The notes under the pieces: model-generated | Database searches by the model: none | Seen by the model: the letters and a program-made list of their open reading frames with translations, nothing else | What the model was told of the DNA's origin: nothing | Source of the DNA: Lachnospiraceae bacterium | GTDB taxonomy: Bacteria; Bacillota; Clostridia; Lachnospirales; Lachnospiraceae | Direction of reading: 5' to 3' | Length of the DNA stretch: 64,000 nucleotides | Assembly (NCBI GenBank): GCA_910575105.1 | Contig: CAJTDK010000003.1 | Location: 186,001 to 250,000 of the forward strand | Shown: piece after piece, positions 47,267 through 53,540 of the stretch | How the letters are laid out: the number at the start of each line of letters is the position of its first letter | Numbering within the stretch: position 1 is the first letter of the stretch | Position numbers and translations under genes: made by a program

Positions 47267-47791
47267 TCACATCGATCCTGCAAGCACTGCGCTTGCCACA
47301 AGGCCTGCGAAGGTAGCTAGCATCGCTCCTGTCAGCGTGTACCTCGTCTTTCTCACCTTTGCCGTCATAAAATACACGCTCATGGTGTAAAATATGGTCT
47401 CCGTGCACGACATGCTGATGGACGCCACCAGCCCGATGTAAGAATCCGTACCGTATTCTTTAAAGGCATCAAGAAGCAGCCCTGTCGCCGCCGAAGACGA
47501 GAACATCTTGACCACGGTAAGGGGCACAAGCTCACTGGGGAAGCCAACGTACTTCATCACGCCTCCGATCAGCCCTGACAGATAATCCAGGAACCCCGAC
47601 GCTCTTAAGATCCCCACCGCCACCATAAGCCCGATCAGCGTAGGCATGATCTTAATCACGGTGAAAAATCCGTCCTTCGCTCCTTTGATAAAGGAATCAT
47701 AGACATTTACCTTCATCAGTACGCCGTAGCTGACTACCAGAAAAATCACCATCGGCACGATAAGGTCTGCGATATACAGCAATATTTTCAC
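47267..47791 (-). CDS. spmB: Spore maturation protein B
   Basis: 174 residues from a GTG start behind GAGGCGG. It has about four membrane helices with the nucleoside-recognition (Gate) fold: IKIMPTLIGLMVAVGILRASG, LVPLTVVKMFSSSAATGLLLD and SMSCTETIFYTMSVYF. SpmA and SpmB normally act together in spore core dehydration and are encoded side by side. Here spmB lies alone on the minus strand, and spmA is on the plus strand 1.6 kb away beyond a MATE gene. The gene looks intact. Confidence 0.93.
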   Translation of the reverse strand: MKILLYIADLIVPMVIFLVVSYGVLMKVNVYDSFIKGAKDGFFTVIKIMPTLIGLMVAVGILRASGFLDYLSGLIGGVMKYVGFPSELVPLTVVKMFSSSAATGLLLDAFKEYGTDSYIGLVASISMSCTETIFYTMSVYFMTAKVRKTRYTLTGAMLATFAGLVASAVLAGSM

Positions 47792-47986
47792 GAAACCGCC
47801 TCATTTCCGCATAAAATCTATTTTCCATTATATGAGCTGTGTTTTGCGTTTATTTCACCTGTTTGTCTCACGGAGGTTGAAAATAAACGGCCGGCATTTT
47901 ATACTGATAAGGAACTGTTTAGTGGTTATTTCTGAGCAGTTGCTTTCCTTAAAATTAATTTTCAATGAAACGGTGATGGCAGAACG

Positions 47987-49363
47987 ATGAAACATTTTAC
48001 TGATACAAAGAGAGATTTCGGACAGGGGAGTGTGGCGGCCAATATCCTGCGCCTGGCGATTCCCATGACGCTGGCGCAGCTGATCAATGTGCTTTACAAT
48101 GTGGTGGACCGCGCCTACATCGGCCATATTCCAGGTACCTCCACGGACGCTCTGACCGGCATCGGCCTGACACTGCCGGTCATTACGGTCATCATGGCAT
48201 TTGCCAATCTGTTCGGCATGGGCGGCGCCCCTTTATTTTCCATCGCAAGAGGCGCTAACGAACCCAAAAAAGCGGAAAGGATCATGGGAAATTCCTTTTC
48301 CATGCTGCTCATCTCCGGTACCGCCCTGTCTGCTGCCTGCTGCCTGTTCCGAAAACCTCTTTTATACCTGTTTGGGGCAAGCGATATTACATACCCCTAT
48401 GCGGACGCCTATGTCACACTCTACCTTCTCGGCACTCTGTTTGTCATGATCAGCCTTGGCATGAACAACTTTATCAATGCACAGGGATTCGGCGTCACCG
48501 GGATGCTCACTGTCTCCATTGGGGCTATGCTTAATCTCCTGCTGGACCCGCTCTTTATCTTCTCCTTTCACATGGGCGTGCGGGGCGCGGCTCTGGCAAC
48601 GATCATCTCACAGGGAATCTCTGCCCTGTGGGTGCTCCGTTTCCTTACAGGGCCAAGGGCGCCAATCAGGCTGACCGCAAGGAGTATGGCGCCCTGTCTT
48701 CCCCTGATAAAAGAAATAACGGCTCTTGGCCTGTCCGGCTTTGTCATGGCCGTCACTAATGGCTCTGTCCAGATTATTTGCAACGCCACGCTCCAGCGCT
48801 ATGGCGGCGACCTCTATGTCGGGATCATGACGGTCATCAATTCTGTCCGCGAAGTCGTCACTATCCCGGTGACCGGGCTTTCCAACGGCGCGCAGCCTGT
48901 TATGAGCTTTAATTACGGAGCGAAAAAATATGGCCGGGTGAAGTCAGCCATAAAGCTGACCACTATATTCTCCATTGTATTTACCTTTGTGATGTGGGCG
49001 CTCATCTTTTTCTTTCCGCAGCTTTTCATCCGGCCTTTCAGCAGCGGGAAGGAGCTTTTGCGGGAGGGTGTCCCCGCCATGCACCTGTACTTTTTCGGGA
49101 TCTTCCTGATGGCGCTGCAGTTCTCCGGGCAGTCTGCATTTGTAGCCCTGGGAAAATCAAGGCAGGCGGTATTTTTCTCCCTGCTGCGCAAGGCTGTCAT
49201 CGTGATCCCGCTTACCCTCTGCCTTCCTGCCGTCGGCAATTTGGGCACTGACGGAGTATTTTTAGCGGAGCCCATCTCCAACCTTATCGGCGGCACCGCA
49301 TGCTTTACCACCATGATGATAACGGTATGGCGGCGGCTGGGAGATGAAACGAATAAGCTGTAA
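47987..49363 (+). CDS. MATE family efflux transporter
   Basis: 458 residues with 12 membrane helices in two homologous halves (LRLAIPMTLAQLINVLYNVVDRAYIG in two parts at the start; IKEITALGLSGFVMAVTNGSVQ in the second half). It would export drugs or metabolites using a Na+ or H+ gradient. It lies between the divergent spmB and the co-oriented spmA. Its stop codon is 46 bases before the spmA start, so they may be co-transcribed. The ribosome site is weak. No specific substrate can be assigned. Confidence 0.92.
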   Translation: MKHFTDTKRDFGQGSVAANILRLAIPMTLAQLINVLYNVVDRAYIGHIPGTSTDALTGIGLTLPVITVIMAFANLFGMGGAPLFSIARGANEPKKAERIMGNSFSMLLISGTALSAACCLFRKPLLYLFGASDITYPYADAYVTLYLLGTLFVMISLGMNNFINAQGFGVTGMLTVSIGAMLNLLLDPLFIFSFHMGVRGAALATIISQGISALWVLRFLTGPRAPIRLTARSMAPCLPLIKEITALGLSGFVMAVTNGSVQIICNATLQRYGGDLYVGIMTVINSVREVVTIPVTGLSNGAQPVMSFNYGAKKYGRVKSAIKLTTIFSIVFTFVMWALIFFFPQLFIRPFSSGKELLREGVPAMHLYFFGIFLMALQFSGQSAFVALGKSRQAVFFSLLRKAVIVIPLTLCLPAVGNLGTDGVFLAEPISNLIGGTACFTTMMITVWRRLGDETNKL

Positions 49364-49409
49364 GCCGCCTGCATATGTTAATCTAAAGGAGCTTTACAAA
49401 GGGAAACTT

Positions 49410-50027
49410 ATGCTGAACTATCTATGGGCGGGAATGATACTCGTCGGAATCATATTCGCGGCATTCACCGGACGGATGCCGGATATCACCAATGCCGCGC
49501 TGGACTCCTCGAAGGAGGCGGTGGCTTTATGTATTACCATGATGGGAGTGATGTCGTTTTGGGTCGGGCTCATGGAAATCGCGGCAAATGCGGGGATCAT
49601 CGAGAGCGCCTCAAAAAAGATCCGCCCTCTGATCCGTTTTCTCTTTCCGAACCTTCCCTGCGGGCATTCGGCGGAGGAGCATATCACGACGAATATCATC
49701 GCCAATGTACTGGGGCTTGGATGGGCAGCGACACCTGCGGGATTACGGGCGATGGAGGAACTTTCTAAGCTGGAAGAGGACAGGAGACATGGCAGACTTC
49801 CGGGACCGGTGAGGAAGAAAGGAATTGCCAGTAATGAGATGTGTACATTTTTGATTATCAATATTTCCTCCTTACAGTTGATTCCAGTGAATGTAATCGC
49901 GTATCGGAGTCAGTACGGGAGCGTGAACCCGACGGCGATCGTGGGGCCGGGGATCGTGGCTACGGCGGTGAGTACGATTGTGGCAGTTTTATATTGCAAA
50001 ATGATGGATGGGAAGCGGAGAGTGTAG
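49410..50027 (+). CDS. spmA: Spore maturation protein A
   Basis: 205 residues. Membrane helices and family segments are LWAGMILVGIIFAAFTGRM, CITMMGVMSFWVGLMEIAANAG (two pieces), HITTNIIANVLGLGWAATPAGL and GPGIVATAVSTIVAVLYC. It functions with SpmB in spore dehydration. The ATG at 49410 follows AAAGGG; an upstream ATG inside the MATE gene gives a non-family extension. The last ~120 bases occur a second time, diverged, at 52208-52327, beyond a two-gene insertion. The gene itself is complete and keeps its own terminator. Confidence 0.93.
   Translation: MLNYLWAGMILVGIIFAAFTGRMPDITNAALDSSKEAVALCITMMGVMSFWVGLMEIAANAGIIESASKKIRPLIRFLFPNLPCGHSAEEHITTNIIANVLGLGWAATPAGLRAMEELSKLEEDRRHGRLPGPVRKKGIASNEMCTFLIINISSLQLIPVNVIAYRSQYGSVNPTAIVGPGIVATAVSTIVAVLYCKMMDGKRRV
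49905..50023 (+). repeat. Direct repeat copy 1: 3' end of spmA
   Basis: This segment, which codes for the last ~39 residues of SpmA, is repeated in the same orientation at 52208-52327. By eye about 15 of ~119 bases differ, and nearly all changes are silent or conservative (for example PTAIVG against PAAVVG). Confidence 0.9.
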
Positions 50028-50041
50028 CGCTCTCCGTTTTT
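50016..50041 (+). terminator. Terminator of spmA, overlapping the stop codon
   Basis: CGGAGAG (50016-50022) pairs with CTCTCCG (50030-50036), and TTTTTG follows. The TAG stop codon lies in the loop. Confidence 0.8.
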
Positions 50042-50160
50042 GTAATAAGAATGAGTTGTTACGTATAAAACTGATAAAAATGTGTTAAATCGGATAAAAA
50101 GGGTTTAAATATAGTATATAAGTAGTATAATAAATAAAAAGGAAAAAGGAGAGGCTGATA

Positions 50161-51354
50161 ATGGGATTAAAGGCGGAAGATGTGTTCAGACCAGGGGCAT
50201 TTCCTGAATATACTTATATATCACGTAAATCTACGGTTTCAGATCTGCCATATGAATTTCGTTTAATGCAGGCAATAAAGGTGTCCGGTTTTTTGACTTC
50301 TTTGGTAGGCCCTTCTAAGATGGGAAAAACGATTCTGTGCGAAAAGGTTATAGGATTTGAAAAGATTGTGGAAGTCTCAGGAGCAGATTTTAGTTTAGAG
50401 ATAGATTTTTGGAAAGTGGTTGCCGCAAAAGTTGGTTTGGCTTATGAGGGAGAGTTTTCTTCAGAGAAAATGATTGCTGATACCAGAGATAAATATTCGA
50501 AAAAAGAAACCTATTCTTTGACAAAAGATAAAATTATAGAATACTACAAAAAAGAAAATTTGGTTTTGGTTATCGATGATTTCCATTACGCGCCGGAAGA
50601 GAAACGGATGCAGATTGCACAGCAGCTGAAAGATGCAATCCGAAGAGGATTTAAGGCAATTGTTGTTTCTTTGCCCCACAGGGCAGATGAAGCAATCCGC
50701 AGGAACGCAGACCTTTCAGGACGATTAAGCATGATCAATATGGAATCATGGGAAGTAAATGATCTAAAGGAAATTGCAAAAATAGGATTTAAAAAATTGG
50801 GTGTACAGATTGAAGAAGATGTTGCAACGCAGATTGCGATAGAAAGTTTATCTTCTCCGCAGTTGATGCAGTACATCTGCTTAAATATCTGTACGATTTT
50901 GGAAATGTCAGGTAGAGATGATTGGTGTGTAAAACCGGAAATTTTGAAAATTGCATATCGATATACAACTGCAAATTTTGAATATGGTGATGTGGTATCC
51001 CTGATGCAAAAGGGGCCAAACATGAGAGGAAAAAGCAGAAACAGATTTCGAGCAGATAATGGGAAGGATTATGATATTTATGAATTGATTGTAAAATCCA
51101 TTGCAGAAAATCCACCTATTATGAAATTGGAATTTGAGGATGTTAAAGAGCGTATTTATTGTTTGATTGCTGATGATTGTAAAAAACCTACTCCGCAAGC
51201 TATAAAAGAAAGTTTGGTTAAGCTACAGGAATTATTGGATGGCCGGGAGGATATATTCAAAGTTCTTGATTGGAAGGAAGGAGTATTGTATATTTTAGAC
51301 CCTTTATTTTTGTTCTATTTACGCTGGGGAGGGGGCGGAAATAAAGATGTTTAG
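50161..51354 (+). CDS. AAA/STAND-like ATPase of a two-gene cassette
   Basis: 397 residues. Walker A is GPSKMGKT (50-57) and Walker B VLVIDDFHY (about 135-143). The later segments VVSLPHRADEAIRR and SGRLSMINMESW look like the sensor and lid region of Orc1/STAND-type ATPases. A C-terminal winged-helix-like region (about 305-390) ends ILDPLFLFYLRW, as in archaeal-type ATPases linked to defence nucleases. There is no membrane helix. It is preceded by AAAAAGGAG and an A+T-rich promoter region, and overlaps the nuclease gene by eight bases. Base use is clearly richer in A+T than the neighbours, a sign of transfer. I infer a sensor/switch ATPase controlling the nuclease; the family name is not certain. 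Confidence 0.85.
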   Translation: MGLKAEDVFRPGAFPEYTYISRKSTVSDLPYEFRLMQAIKVSGFLTSLVGPSKMGKTILCEKVIGFEKIVEVSGADFSLEIDFWKVVAAKVGLAYEGEFSSEKMIADTRDKYSKKETYSLTKDKIIEYYKKENLVLVIDDFHYAPEEKRMQIAQQLKDAIRRGFKAIVVSLPHRADEAIRRNADLSGRLSMINMESWEVNDLKEIAKIGFKKLGVQIEEDVATQIAIESLSSPQLMQYICLNICTILEMSGRDDWCVKPEILKIAYRYTTANFEYGDVVSLMQKGPNMRGKSRNRFRADNGKDYDIYELIVKSIAENPPIMKLEFEDVKERIYCLIADDCKKPTPQAIKESLVKLQELLDGREDIFKVLDWKEGVLYILDPLFLFYLRWGGGGNKDV

Positions 51355-52078
51355 TAATTCCGGTAGTATACAACAAGCTATGGAAAGATTGGTGTGCGCA
51401 AAGGACAGTCAGTCATTTCAAGCCGCGACAAGCGCTTTAAGAGAGCAGATGAAAAGAACAGGAATGGATTCGCAATATTTAATTGATTTGGAAAGAAGGG
51501 CCTACTATCTCCCAAATGAATATTCTGATAAAGATACAAAAGAAAAGATGCTTGAAGCCAAAAAGAGAGTAATAGAGTACATGAATGAGATTATGAATGT
51601 AAATGAAAACGGCAGATTGCTTTTGGATGTACTGGAAAACTTTTATCTTTTTTTGGAAAATCTTTTCGAAAGGAGACTTCATAAAAAAGGAGGGATTCAA
51701 AAAGAGCAGTTAGAAGGATTAAGAATAAAAAATGAGTACGATGTCCAACATTTGTTGTATGCATATCTTAAACCACTCTATCCAATGGCAAGAGCAGAGG
51801 TAAATGAGGATACGGGATATGGTACAGTCAGGTCGGATATTTTGTTGGATTCGGAAAATACTATTGAAGTAAAGTGCACGAGAAAAGGAATGGTATTGAA
51901 GAAGCTGGTCGAGGAAATAGAAGCGGATATGGTACATTATAGCGCAAAAAATATTTATTTTTTCATATATGATAAAGAAAAATTGATTGATAACCCTTGT
52001 AATTTTAAGAGCATTTATGAAGAAAAGATGAAGGACAAGCATATTTATATTATTATTCACCAACCTAAGATATTATAA
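51347..52078 (+). CDS. DpnII/MboI-like PD-(D/E)XK nuclease of the cassette
   Basis: 243 residues. The N-terminal ~115 residues are helical and charged, without a match that I know. The C-terminal part (about 125-240) reads RIKNEYDVQHLLYAYLKPLYP, then VRSDILLD and TIEVKCTRKGMVLKKLVEEI, then FFIYDKEKLIDNP. This fits the PD-(D/E)XK core, with Asp164 and Glu174-x-Lys176 as the metal site, in the arrangement of the REase_DpnII-MboI family. There is no methyltransferase next to it, so it is not a classical restriction enzyme pair. Its start lies within the end of the ATPase gene (eight-base overlap), which points to coupled translation and a joint function. Confidence 0.85.
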   Translation: MFSNSGSIQQAMERLVCAKDSQSFQAATSALREQMKRTGMDSQYLIDLERRAYYLPNEYSDKDTKEKMLEAKKRVIEYMNEIMNVNENGRLLLDVLENFYLFLENLFERRLHKKGGIQKEQLEGLRIKNEYDVQHLLYAYLKPLYPMARAEVNEDTGYGTVRSDILLDSENTIEVKCTRKGMVLKKLVEEIEADMVHYSAKNIYFFIYDKEKLIDNPCNFKSIYEEKMKDKHIYIIIHQPKIL

Positions 52079-52207
52079 ATTTCGATACTTAGTATCTACA
52101 AAAGATGAATCGCTTCTTCGTGAAGAGCCGGAATGCTGTTATGATAATGGAAACTAATTAGACAAATAGGAGAACAATTTTTTAGTCTTAGCTTGACACA
52201 ACCGTTT

Positions 52208-52345
52208 CGAAGCCAGTACGGGAGCGTGAACCCGGCAGCGGTCGTGGGGCCGGGGATTGTGGCTACGGCGGTGAGCACGATTGTGGCAGTGATATATTGT
52301 AAGATGATGGATGGGAAGCGGAGGATATAACCTCTTCCGCTTTTT
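52208..52345 (+). repeat. Direct repeat copy 2: diverged spmA 3' end with its own stop and terminator
   Basis: The copy codes in frame for SQYGSVNPAAVVGPG and onward to YCKMMDGKRRI, then TAA. A terminator follows in which GCGG-AGG pairs with CCT-CTT-CCGC before TTTTT (about 52315-52345). Because the frame and hairpin are kept although bases differ, it looks like the tail of another spmA allele and not recent slippage. It marks the right end of the ATPase/nuclease insertion. The 129 bases between the nuclease stop and this copy hold no supported gene. Confidence 0.88.
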
Positions 52346-52449
52346 AACATTTCTTTAAAAAGCTATTTGAATAATGTGATTCCAATTGTATAAAAAGGGA
52401 AAAAGGGGTATTATAGAGAACATATAAAATGCGTATGTGGGTGATGCAT

Positions 52450-52745
52450 ATGTATAGGGAAGCAATAAAACAGTTAGAATTATGGAAATATTGAGTCAAC
52501 TGAAAACCATTGATACTACGAGGGGCACGACAGGTAGGAAAACATGGATTATGAAAGAGTTTGGTAAGAAATATTATGAAATAAGCGCTTATATCAGTAT
52601 GGATGGGAATGAGAGGATGAAGGAGATTTTCGGGAAGCGTTTGATATTAACAGAATTATCGAAATATTGGTAATTGAAGTGGGCTTTAAAATTGATCCTG
52701 AGAAGACACTTATTATTTTTGATGAAGTGCAGGAAATGTCTGCCG
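52450..52745 (+). pseudogene. Broken AAA ATPase gene (DUF4143/AAA_14 type)
   Basis: Starting from ATG at 52450, the translation reads MYREAIKQLELWKY, then two in-frame stops, then KPLILRGARQVGKTWIMK with a clear Walker A, and YISMDGNERMKEIF. After a frameshift near 52630 it continues DINRIIEILVIEVGFKIDP and Walker B TLIIFDEVQEM. The rest of the gene is missing. The pieces match the N-terminal half of the DUF4143 ATPase family, common in gut Firmicutes. It is dead by stops, shift and truncation. Confidence 0.85.
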
Positions 52746-52764
52746 TACCCATTTTAAACTTGGA

Positions 52765-53127
52765 AGGGACTGGCAACACACTGGATGTCTCCAATGAATT
52801 CCAATACAGCCAGAAGCACGAGAAAGCTCTTAAGCGCCTGAAGAACTTCCGGTTACTGGACGATGATTTTTGCACAAAAGTGTTTGAAGATATTGAACGT
52901 GTGGAGCTGTTACTGCGTATCATATTAGAGAAAGATAATCTGAAAGTAACCGAAGTACATTCCCAATATAATATAAAGAATCTCCAGGGGCGCTCAGCAA
53001 GGCTCGATATATTTGCCATTAATGATACCGGAGCGGAGCTGAATGTGGAAGTACAAAAAAGCGACAAGGGCGCAGCCCCAAGACGGGCGAGATACCATTC
53101 CAGCCTGATTGACGCAAACATCACAGA
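52765..53127 (+). pseudogene. Fragment of an Rpn/PDDEXK_2 family nuclease gene
   Basis: In the frame that continues from the ATPase remnant, residues read HEKALKRLKNFRLLDDDFC, VELLLRIILEKDNLKV, GRSARLDIFAINDTGAELNVEVQ and RRARYHSSLIDAN. This is the N-terminal core of the PD-(D/E)XK nuclease/transposase family (Rpn-like), with Asp in RLDIF and E-x-Q in NVEVQ. Both ends are joined to unrelated fragments, so the ORF of 187 codons starting at 52667 is a chimera of remnants and not a gene. Confidence 0.8.
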
Positions 53128-53414
53128 ACCTGGTATACGTCAAACCCAGCAAATGCACTCCCGAAACTGCCATAAAATATATCGGCCGATATCTTGGACG
53201 TCCTGTCATTGCCACCTCCAGGACCGATAAATATGATGGAGACTTTGTTACTTTCCATTACAACCGCCATGAAGACGATGCATATGTGGAAGGAACCATT
53301 CCAGTTATGGAATTCATTGAACGCCTCATCCAGCACATACCGCAAAAGCATTACAAAATGATCCGCCATGCCCATATGTTCGATAAATTTCTGTTTATTT
53401 TTCCTATAAAGTAA
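53128..53414 (+). pseudogene. 3' fragment of an IS91-type transposase gene
   Basis: The frame reads YVKPSKCTPETAIKYIGRYLGR, FVTFHYNRHEDDAYVEGTIPVMEFIE and LIQHIPQKHYKMIRHAHMF. This matches my memory of the C-terminal part of Y2-type (IS91/IS801) transposases. The N-terminal zinc and catalytic parts are missing, and the 5' end is fused to the nuclease remnant. It is evidence of past mobile-element activity in this gap. Confidence 0.75.
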
Positions 53415-53418
53415 ATAA

Positions 53419-53460
53419 ATGGACGGAAAACAGAGAGCGTAAAAACCTCTCTGTTTTTTT
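53419..53460 (+). terminator. Terminator, possibly a third vestige of the spmA tail
   Basis: ACAGAGAG (53430-53437) pairs with CTCTCTGT (53447-53454), followed by seven Ts. Just before it ATGGACGGAAAACAG and a TAA (53440-53442) would encode MDGKQRA and stop, close to the MDGKRRV end of SpmA, with the stop codon in the loop as in copy 1. The match is short and may be chance. Confidence 0.55.
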
Positions 53461-53540
53461 ATTTCCTATCTATAACATTTGCTGAGAACGTGGTATAATT
53501 TATTATATGTAACAAAAATCACAATAGGATGGAGAGCGAT

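Follow-up and report, generated by a model that had tools for sequence, protein, structure and literature searches.

A probable serine-recombinase-type defence cassette that renews the 3' end of spmA in Lachnospiraceae

Behind the sporulation gene spmA of a Lachnospiraceae bacterium lies a small unit which, we hold with good confidence, is a non-autonomous, site-specifically inserted defence cassette of the serine-recombinase type that stacks by mimicking the tail of its target gene. It occupies positions 49902-52204 of the window, i.e., of the whole stretch of 64,000 nucleotides analysed here. Comparison between genomes shows an exact unit with exact junctions, replacement of the gene tail, arrays, targets that are not homologous to each other and a terminus common with serine-recombinase elements. 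The comparison set comprised about 15 Lachnospiraceae genomes, G000 being the genome of the window.

The unit and its boundaries

The label spmA is based on a weak match to the Gate domain (E 1e-4, below the Pfam cut-off), on the significant Gate match of the spmB-like neighbour and on the conserved neighbourhood. The spmB-like and spmA-like genes (47267-50027) are oppositely oriented with a MATE transporter gene between them, an arrangement conserved in the genus; the order spmB-MATE-spmA is kept in 5 of its genomes. The features of the locus are these:

49410-50027, plus strand: intact spmA-like gene of 205 aa, its final 126 bp cassette-supplied (open reading frame; the spmB-like gene, 47267-47791, minus strand, and the MATE gene are kept beside it in relatives)
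49902-50027, plus strand: copy 1 of the spmA tail, which replaces the old one and runs from the putative crossover base through the stop codon (repeat; switch base mapped in G402/G403)
50010-50043, plus strand: terminator hairpin of copy 1 (fold)
50044-50160, plus strand: 5' region of the cassette, presumed promoter (follows the cargo, not the species)
50161-51354, plus strand: ATPase, 397 aa, AAA_22/TniB-like and PDC-S59-like (Pfam; PADLOC PDC-S59, E 2.7e-20)
51347-52078, plus strand: nuclease, 243 aa, with a DpnII-MboI restriction endonuclease domain (Pfam PF18742, E 7e-32)
52178-52204, plus strand: right terminus of the cassette, T-run plus AGTCTTAGCTTGACACAACCG, putative element-side half of the recombination site (terminus comparison across cassettes and junctions)
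52205-52330, plus strand: second spmA tail, copy 2, start of the next, older cassette (repeat; junction table)
52311-52346, plus strand: terminator hairpin of copy 2 (fold)
52482-53414, plus strand: decayed older cargo, i.e., a small ATPase-like fragment (by eye), a PDDEXK_2 fragment and a Y2_Tnp (IS91-type) fragment (both by Pfam)
53419-53462, plus strand: what is left of the original spmA 3' end, native terminator included; next comes the native leader of the histidine kinase gene at 53529 (alignment with the empty or native sites of G003, G004 and G001; fold)

The unit is delimited by a direct repeat of 142 nt (49900-50041 and 52203-52344) with 85% identity and a spacing of 2303. Searched against the whole 4.24-Mb assembly, the repeat found two matches only, with 100% and 91% identity (E 1e-56 and 3.5e-40), and is therefore not a product of chance; the duplication of spmA 3' ends described in an earlier, sequence-only reading of this DNA is thus real. 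Both copies retain the spmA frame and the stop codon, as had been claimed, and folding confirmed for each a strong hairpin with T's behind it (-19.3 and -17.5 kcal/mol; z -5.5 and -5.0). The exact boundary of the repeat is the T at 49902 and 52205, 3 bases outside the start given before, and the unit counted between corresponding repeat bases measures 2303 bp. It consists, in this order, of a replacement spmA 3' end, stop, terminator, presumed promoter, the genes of the ATPase and of the DpnII/MboI-type nuclease, and the fixed terminus TTTTTT-AGTCTTAGCTTGACACAACCG. This element terminus of 21 bases lies with its T-run directly 5' of the second repeat copy, which starts with TT where other junctions show TA.

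Behind the second tail the locus continues with decayed cargo, the Y2_Tnp fragment of which extends over 53109-53414, and with a third, shortened spmA 3' end, which equals the last 24 bases of the original spmA. Native end, terminator and kinase leader together span 53419-53528. By alignment, the window is a two-step array of cassette, second tail, decayed cargo and original spmA end. Since the native end comes last, the newest cassette would be the one that adjoins the gene.

Empty sites, shared cassettes and arrays

The sequence-only reading had proposed to look for strains with one tail and no cargo, for other cargo between two tails and for the precise junctions, and all three were found. 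In G003 the site is empty: spmA is followed after ~120 bp by the histidine kinase that starts at 53529 in the window. Other cargo between tails occurs in G001, G002 and G400-G407, and the junctions could be resolved to one base (see below). G001 (Lachnospiraceae bacterium 3-2) contains the cassette of the window (ATPase with 97% protein identity) and, beyond a second spmA tail, another cassette of three genes that is followed by a third tail; G002 has different cargo behind spmA, and G005 a version of the ATPase, 43% identical, directly behind the gene.

The cassette family of the window is 94-98% identical at the DNA level between unlike flanks in G000, G001, G400 and G404. In these four genomes the 5' region of the cassette is 85-99% identical, as against ~60% in other pairs. 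Cassettes behind spmA measure 1.3-4.4 kb and form arrays: four in a row in G404, three in G400 and three or more in G402. Arrays of a second kind are built on an S8-peptidase gene, with the intact gene upstream in G168 and with the same tails, the intact gene lying out of view, in G304. These S8-peptidase-tail arrays (G168:C21, L083+L084; G304:C14, L078-L080) hold toxin-antitoxin pairs, Rhs fragments and regulators; that of G304 also holds a broken serine recombinase.

Exact junctions and replacement of the tail

The spmA genes of G402 and G403 differ at 46 of 160 positions (29%) ahead of the TAC of codon 165, and at 0 of 200 from there on; the same AbiLi-like cassette sits at the switch base in both genomes. 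Four species share this 2037-bp cassette with 99.4-99.9% identity between flanks that are far less alike: on the left 21-73 of 100 positions agree, and on the right identity is 72-85%. Between G406 and G407, identity rises from 74.7% for the gene to 96.7% for its last 123 bp and 99.1% for the 3' region. These identity patterns indicate that the replacement tail travels with the cargo, and the integrating unit with a replacement spmA tail that had been suggested from the window alone gains further weight from its insertion at the same base into genes that are not homologous. On contig C2 of G000 a Tn916-type integrase gene adjoins the terminus, and its alignment with intact copies from other genomes starts at the base right after CCG; in G180 the terminus is joined to parB, and it is also found joined to S8-peptidase tails. 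Each of the 48 junctions that were tabulated reads terminus, 3 nt, target.

Homologous recombination alone, the other explanation offered at the outset, would have RecA exchange or integrate a foreign fragment carrying an spmA tail at each end, the repeats serving as homology arms. The tails are indeed long direct repeats, and in two gene-proximal pairs (G406/G407 and G400/G404) identity switches at scattered points, 28 to ~100 bp inside the tail. However, the terminus is common to unlike cargos, and G402 and G403 switch exactly at the junction base with 29% divergence upstream. Because the terminus meets unrelated genes at this same base, homologous exchange is not the mechanism of insertion, and as a sole explanation it is very improbable. 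The switches inside the tail probably reflect later homologous recombination between tails, and to that extent the proposal survives.

Tails starting at codons 98, 107 and 164 at first suggested 3' ends of varying length, copied or of a retro type. This was rejected: every one of these starts recurs precisely and goes with a terminus class of its own. A separate observation concerns the reading frame. Almost every protein-coding target has the codons TTG ACA CAA (LTQ) of the terminus in the same frame as its gene tail, well beyond 1 in 3, which possibly reflects a site preference or a translation restart.

The terminus and its link to serine-recombinase elements

Unlike cargos share one end before the next spmA tail, a T-run and AGTCYTASCTTGACACAA set off from that tail by three bases. 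When 84,980 species genomes were scanned for exact occurrences of the terminus, 16 stretches were retrieved, all titled Lachnospiraceae or close relatives (Eubacteriaceae, Dorea, Lachnoclostridium), several of them with two or three copies within 8 kb. With up to 3 mismatches allowed, 35 matches were obtained in 17 genomes versus 0 for a reversed-pattern control; IMG/VR yielded 0 matches. The TTGACA of the terminus was also considered as a promoter and dismissed, there being no -10 at the right distance, and neither a group II intron nor an integron attC was seen in the terminus by eye. The genome of the window has a different terminus class as well, ATTCCTTACTTGACACAA at L048 1740 (G000:C16), joined to an aldo/keto-reductase-like tail.

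A clue to the enzymology comes from G403, where codon 107 of spmA is occupied by an element that has ParA/ParB-type genes at one end and, at the other, a tandem of three large serine recombinases with Resolvase, Recombinase and zinc-ribbon domains; on the right it ends in GTTCGTGTCATTAACTTGACACAA. G287 has the same junction and a recombinase triplet in spmA, so that three serine recombinases are found with the codon-107 element in both genomes. Serine recombinases of the G403 type are common in the family: one of the three was matched in 72 of 299 genomes. The sequence CTTGACA(C/T)NA after a T-run was present within 1.5 kb 3' of the last recombinase in 8 of 27 loci versus 0 in antisense, against a background of 1 in 232 kb of recombinase genes. 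Targets at the ends of triplet elements include enolase, aldo/keto reductase and DUF1016-like genes, as assigned by reading the proteins. The cassette of the window shares this element-end (att) sequence of the triplet serine-integrase family. Since termini of the same type follow the last recombinase in these 8 of 27 loci, the terminus of the cassette is most likely the element-side half-site of the large-serine-recombinase triplet family.

The cassettes themselves are devoid of such enzymes. No recombinase is present in 49902-52204 or in the other spmA cassettes, and no large serine recombinase was detected in the window at E<=1e-8, in line with the earlier statement that no integrase was to be seen. 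A recombinase with the terminus and target class of the window (AGTCTTAG..CCG followed by TAY) was not found, the exact matches all being recombinase-less cassettes. In the 17 array genomes every match to the same terminus was a cassette or array junction and none lay beside a recombinase; the recombinase loci of these genomes have other terminus classes.

This search for a class-specific helper could be taken to favour another, unrecognised recombinase or transposase as the mover of the cassettes, e.g., one related to the IS91/Y2-type remnant nearby (53109-53414). That fragment, however, belongs to the decayed older segment outside the intact unit; no Y2 homologue was noticed among the predicted proteins of the other cassettes, part of which were searched; and the terminus matches the ends of serine-recombinase elements. 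We consider such a mover improbable.

Some further insertions of triplet elements are worth recording. At L121 3153-3488 and L120 6752, and also in G401 and G410, a large three-serine-recombinase element interrupts spmA near codon 107 and leaves a truncated 5' part. From another sporulation gene, sigK, the skin element is excised during sporulation. At L164 8175-9062 (reverse-complement coordinates) the right end of a three-recombinase element is joined in frame to the C-terminal part of enolase, and at L162 9382-14882 one three-recombinase element apparently sits inside a recombinase gene of another.

Proposed mechanism

The recombination site would consist of the T-run-AGTCTTAGCTTGACACAACCG terminus and the spmA tail joined to it. 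The cassette would enter spmA where a recombinase opens it, at the border of codons 164 and 165 in front of TAY. The body of the gene would then be joined to the cassette's own spmA tail with stop, terminator, promoter and cargo, and the old tail would be pushed behind the terminus. As the supplied tail mimics the old one, the junction of gene and supplied tail would again be an entry site. Because the entry site is rebuilt, further cassettes could enter in front, and repeated entry would create arrays in which the last in is placed first. A rebuilt site would account for this placement, for the nested sites of G403, where a codon-164 cassette lies within a codon-107 arrangement, and for a spmA that stays intact despite repeated insertion.

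The recombinase would most likely be supplied by the large-serine-recombinase family that is found as triplets on integrative elements of the same bacterial family. With no such enzyme encoded on the cassettes, it would have to act in trans, and its substrate would presumably be a circular intermediate; the cassettes may be mobile to the present day. A canonical serine integrase recombines attP with attB alone (PMC3783163). Such an enzyme would not fit, because the cassette circle would carry a half-mimic site. By analogy, the Ccr enzymes of the SCC type with their composite arrays appear to be the better and nearest precedent for half-mimic sites.

Relation to known mobile elements

The literature that we searched for serine-recombinase cassettes, in Lachnospiraceae or at spmA, does not mention this system, yet related principles are established elsewhere. 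SCC-like elements without ccr, the pseudo-SCC, exist. Like SCC, pseudo-SCC and ECC, the cassettes enter a protein-coding target near its 3' end, are most likely linked to serine recombinases, are flanked by direct repeats and form arrays. ECC and SCC employ the large serine recombinases CcrAB at the 3' region of rlmH, with flanking direct repeats of ~50 bp and several attR per array (PMC6222049). In contrast, the targets here are codon 164/165 of spmA and also an S8-peptidase gene, parB and a Tn916-type int gene, but not rlmH; the spmA cassettes have 1.3-4.4 kb and replace ~125 bp of the gene; and the family to which they are related uses recombinase triplets and a different site sequence.

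The ssrA islands of Dehalococcoides are tandem, with repeats of the target's 3' end and a fixed 15-bp motif before each repeat, and 15 of 31 lack integration genes (PMC3146451). The cassettes resemble them in all these respects: tandem units, target-3'-end repeats, a fixed motif before each and absence of integration genes. The islands differ in their target (tmRNA), their 20-bp repeat, their DsiB large serine integrase plus small serine recombinase, their cargo, largely dehalogenases, and their unrelated motif.

In streptococci, ICEs with triplet serine integrases carry three recombinase genes at one end, lie inside mutT, traG or hsdM and also use secondary sites (PMC4701971). Insertion inside protein genes and three serine recombinase genes are features they have in common with the family of the cassettes. 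However, these ICEs disrupt the gene with repeats of 2-8 bp, whereas the cassettes restore the gene and carry no recombinase. We therefore file the cassettes neither as SCC nor as triplet ICEs, because the target is not that of SCC and no recombinase is carried.

CIMEs are integrase-less units flanked by att sites and subject to tandem accretion (PMC5704250). The cassettes, too, have kept their flanking att sites and lack integration and transfer genes. They could accordingly be decay remnants, each a three-recombinase element after internal deletion that moves only in cis with an intact neighbour. The scheme is established in streptococci (PMC5704250), and G403 has a full three-recombinase element in spmA beside cassettes. 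G403 is, however, the only genome in which such a related element adjoins them. Elsewhere cassettes recur as intact units: those of 2037 bp and 2.3 kb are found with different neighbours in several species, which requires movement as units. Moreover, the cargo directly abuts the terminus, and leftover integration or transfer genes are absent. Decay seems the less likely origin, and movement in trans remains the preferred explanation.

In the logic of their arrays the cassettes resemble integrons. Unlike CIMEs or integron cassettes, each has its own gene tail, terminator and promoter, and insertion rebuilds the host gene; in further distinction from integrons, neither attC nor IntI was seen on inspection of the terminus. 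The hypervariable islands around AcrIIA22 differ from the spmA cassettes, being located at purF/radC with no repeat mentioned (PMC8545432). What is new here are very small, defence-loaded, gene-restoring cassettes with ends of the serine-recombinase type at protein-coding genes; the mechanism itself is like that of SCC/pseudo-SCC, ssrA islands and CIMEs.

Cargo and biological meaning

No single named PADLOC system covers both genes of the window: the ATPase is, in part, like PDC-S59, and the nuclease is like the pAgo-associated helical REases. Sister cassettes contain NsnABC (the Menshen system; NsnC, E 1e-181), a Menshen/Septu-like trio, PDC-M03AB (a HipA-like kinase and a HIRAN protein) and an AbiLi-like AAA protein. 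From the sequences, the ATPase/nuclease pair likely has a role in anti-phage defence. A homologous pair in another genus (L022) likewise ends in a terminus-like sequence.

Tentatively, the phenomenon may extend beyond spmA. Throughout the Lachnospiraceae, serine recombinases might serve a system comparable to the integron. Recombinases supplied in trans would capture minimal cassettes that lack an integrase, bear defence or toxin-antitoxin genes and have tail mimics, and would stack them at protein-coding genes (spmA, S8 peptidase); the cassettes would pass between species as exact units.

In practical terms, the terminus is a sequence handle, and searching for it retrieves cassettes including known defence systems. 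Uncharacterised cargos enclosed by these ends, the ATPase/nuclease pair among them, are therefore strong candidates for defence functions. For the bacteria, the cassettes would offer small anti-phage systems a precise route between gut inhabitants without a recombinase of their own, and would account for a defence island that expands at a protein-coding gene for sporulation and yet leaves it unbroken.
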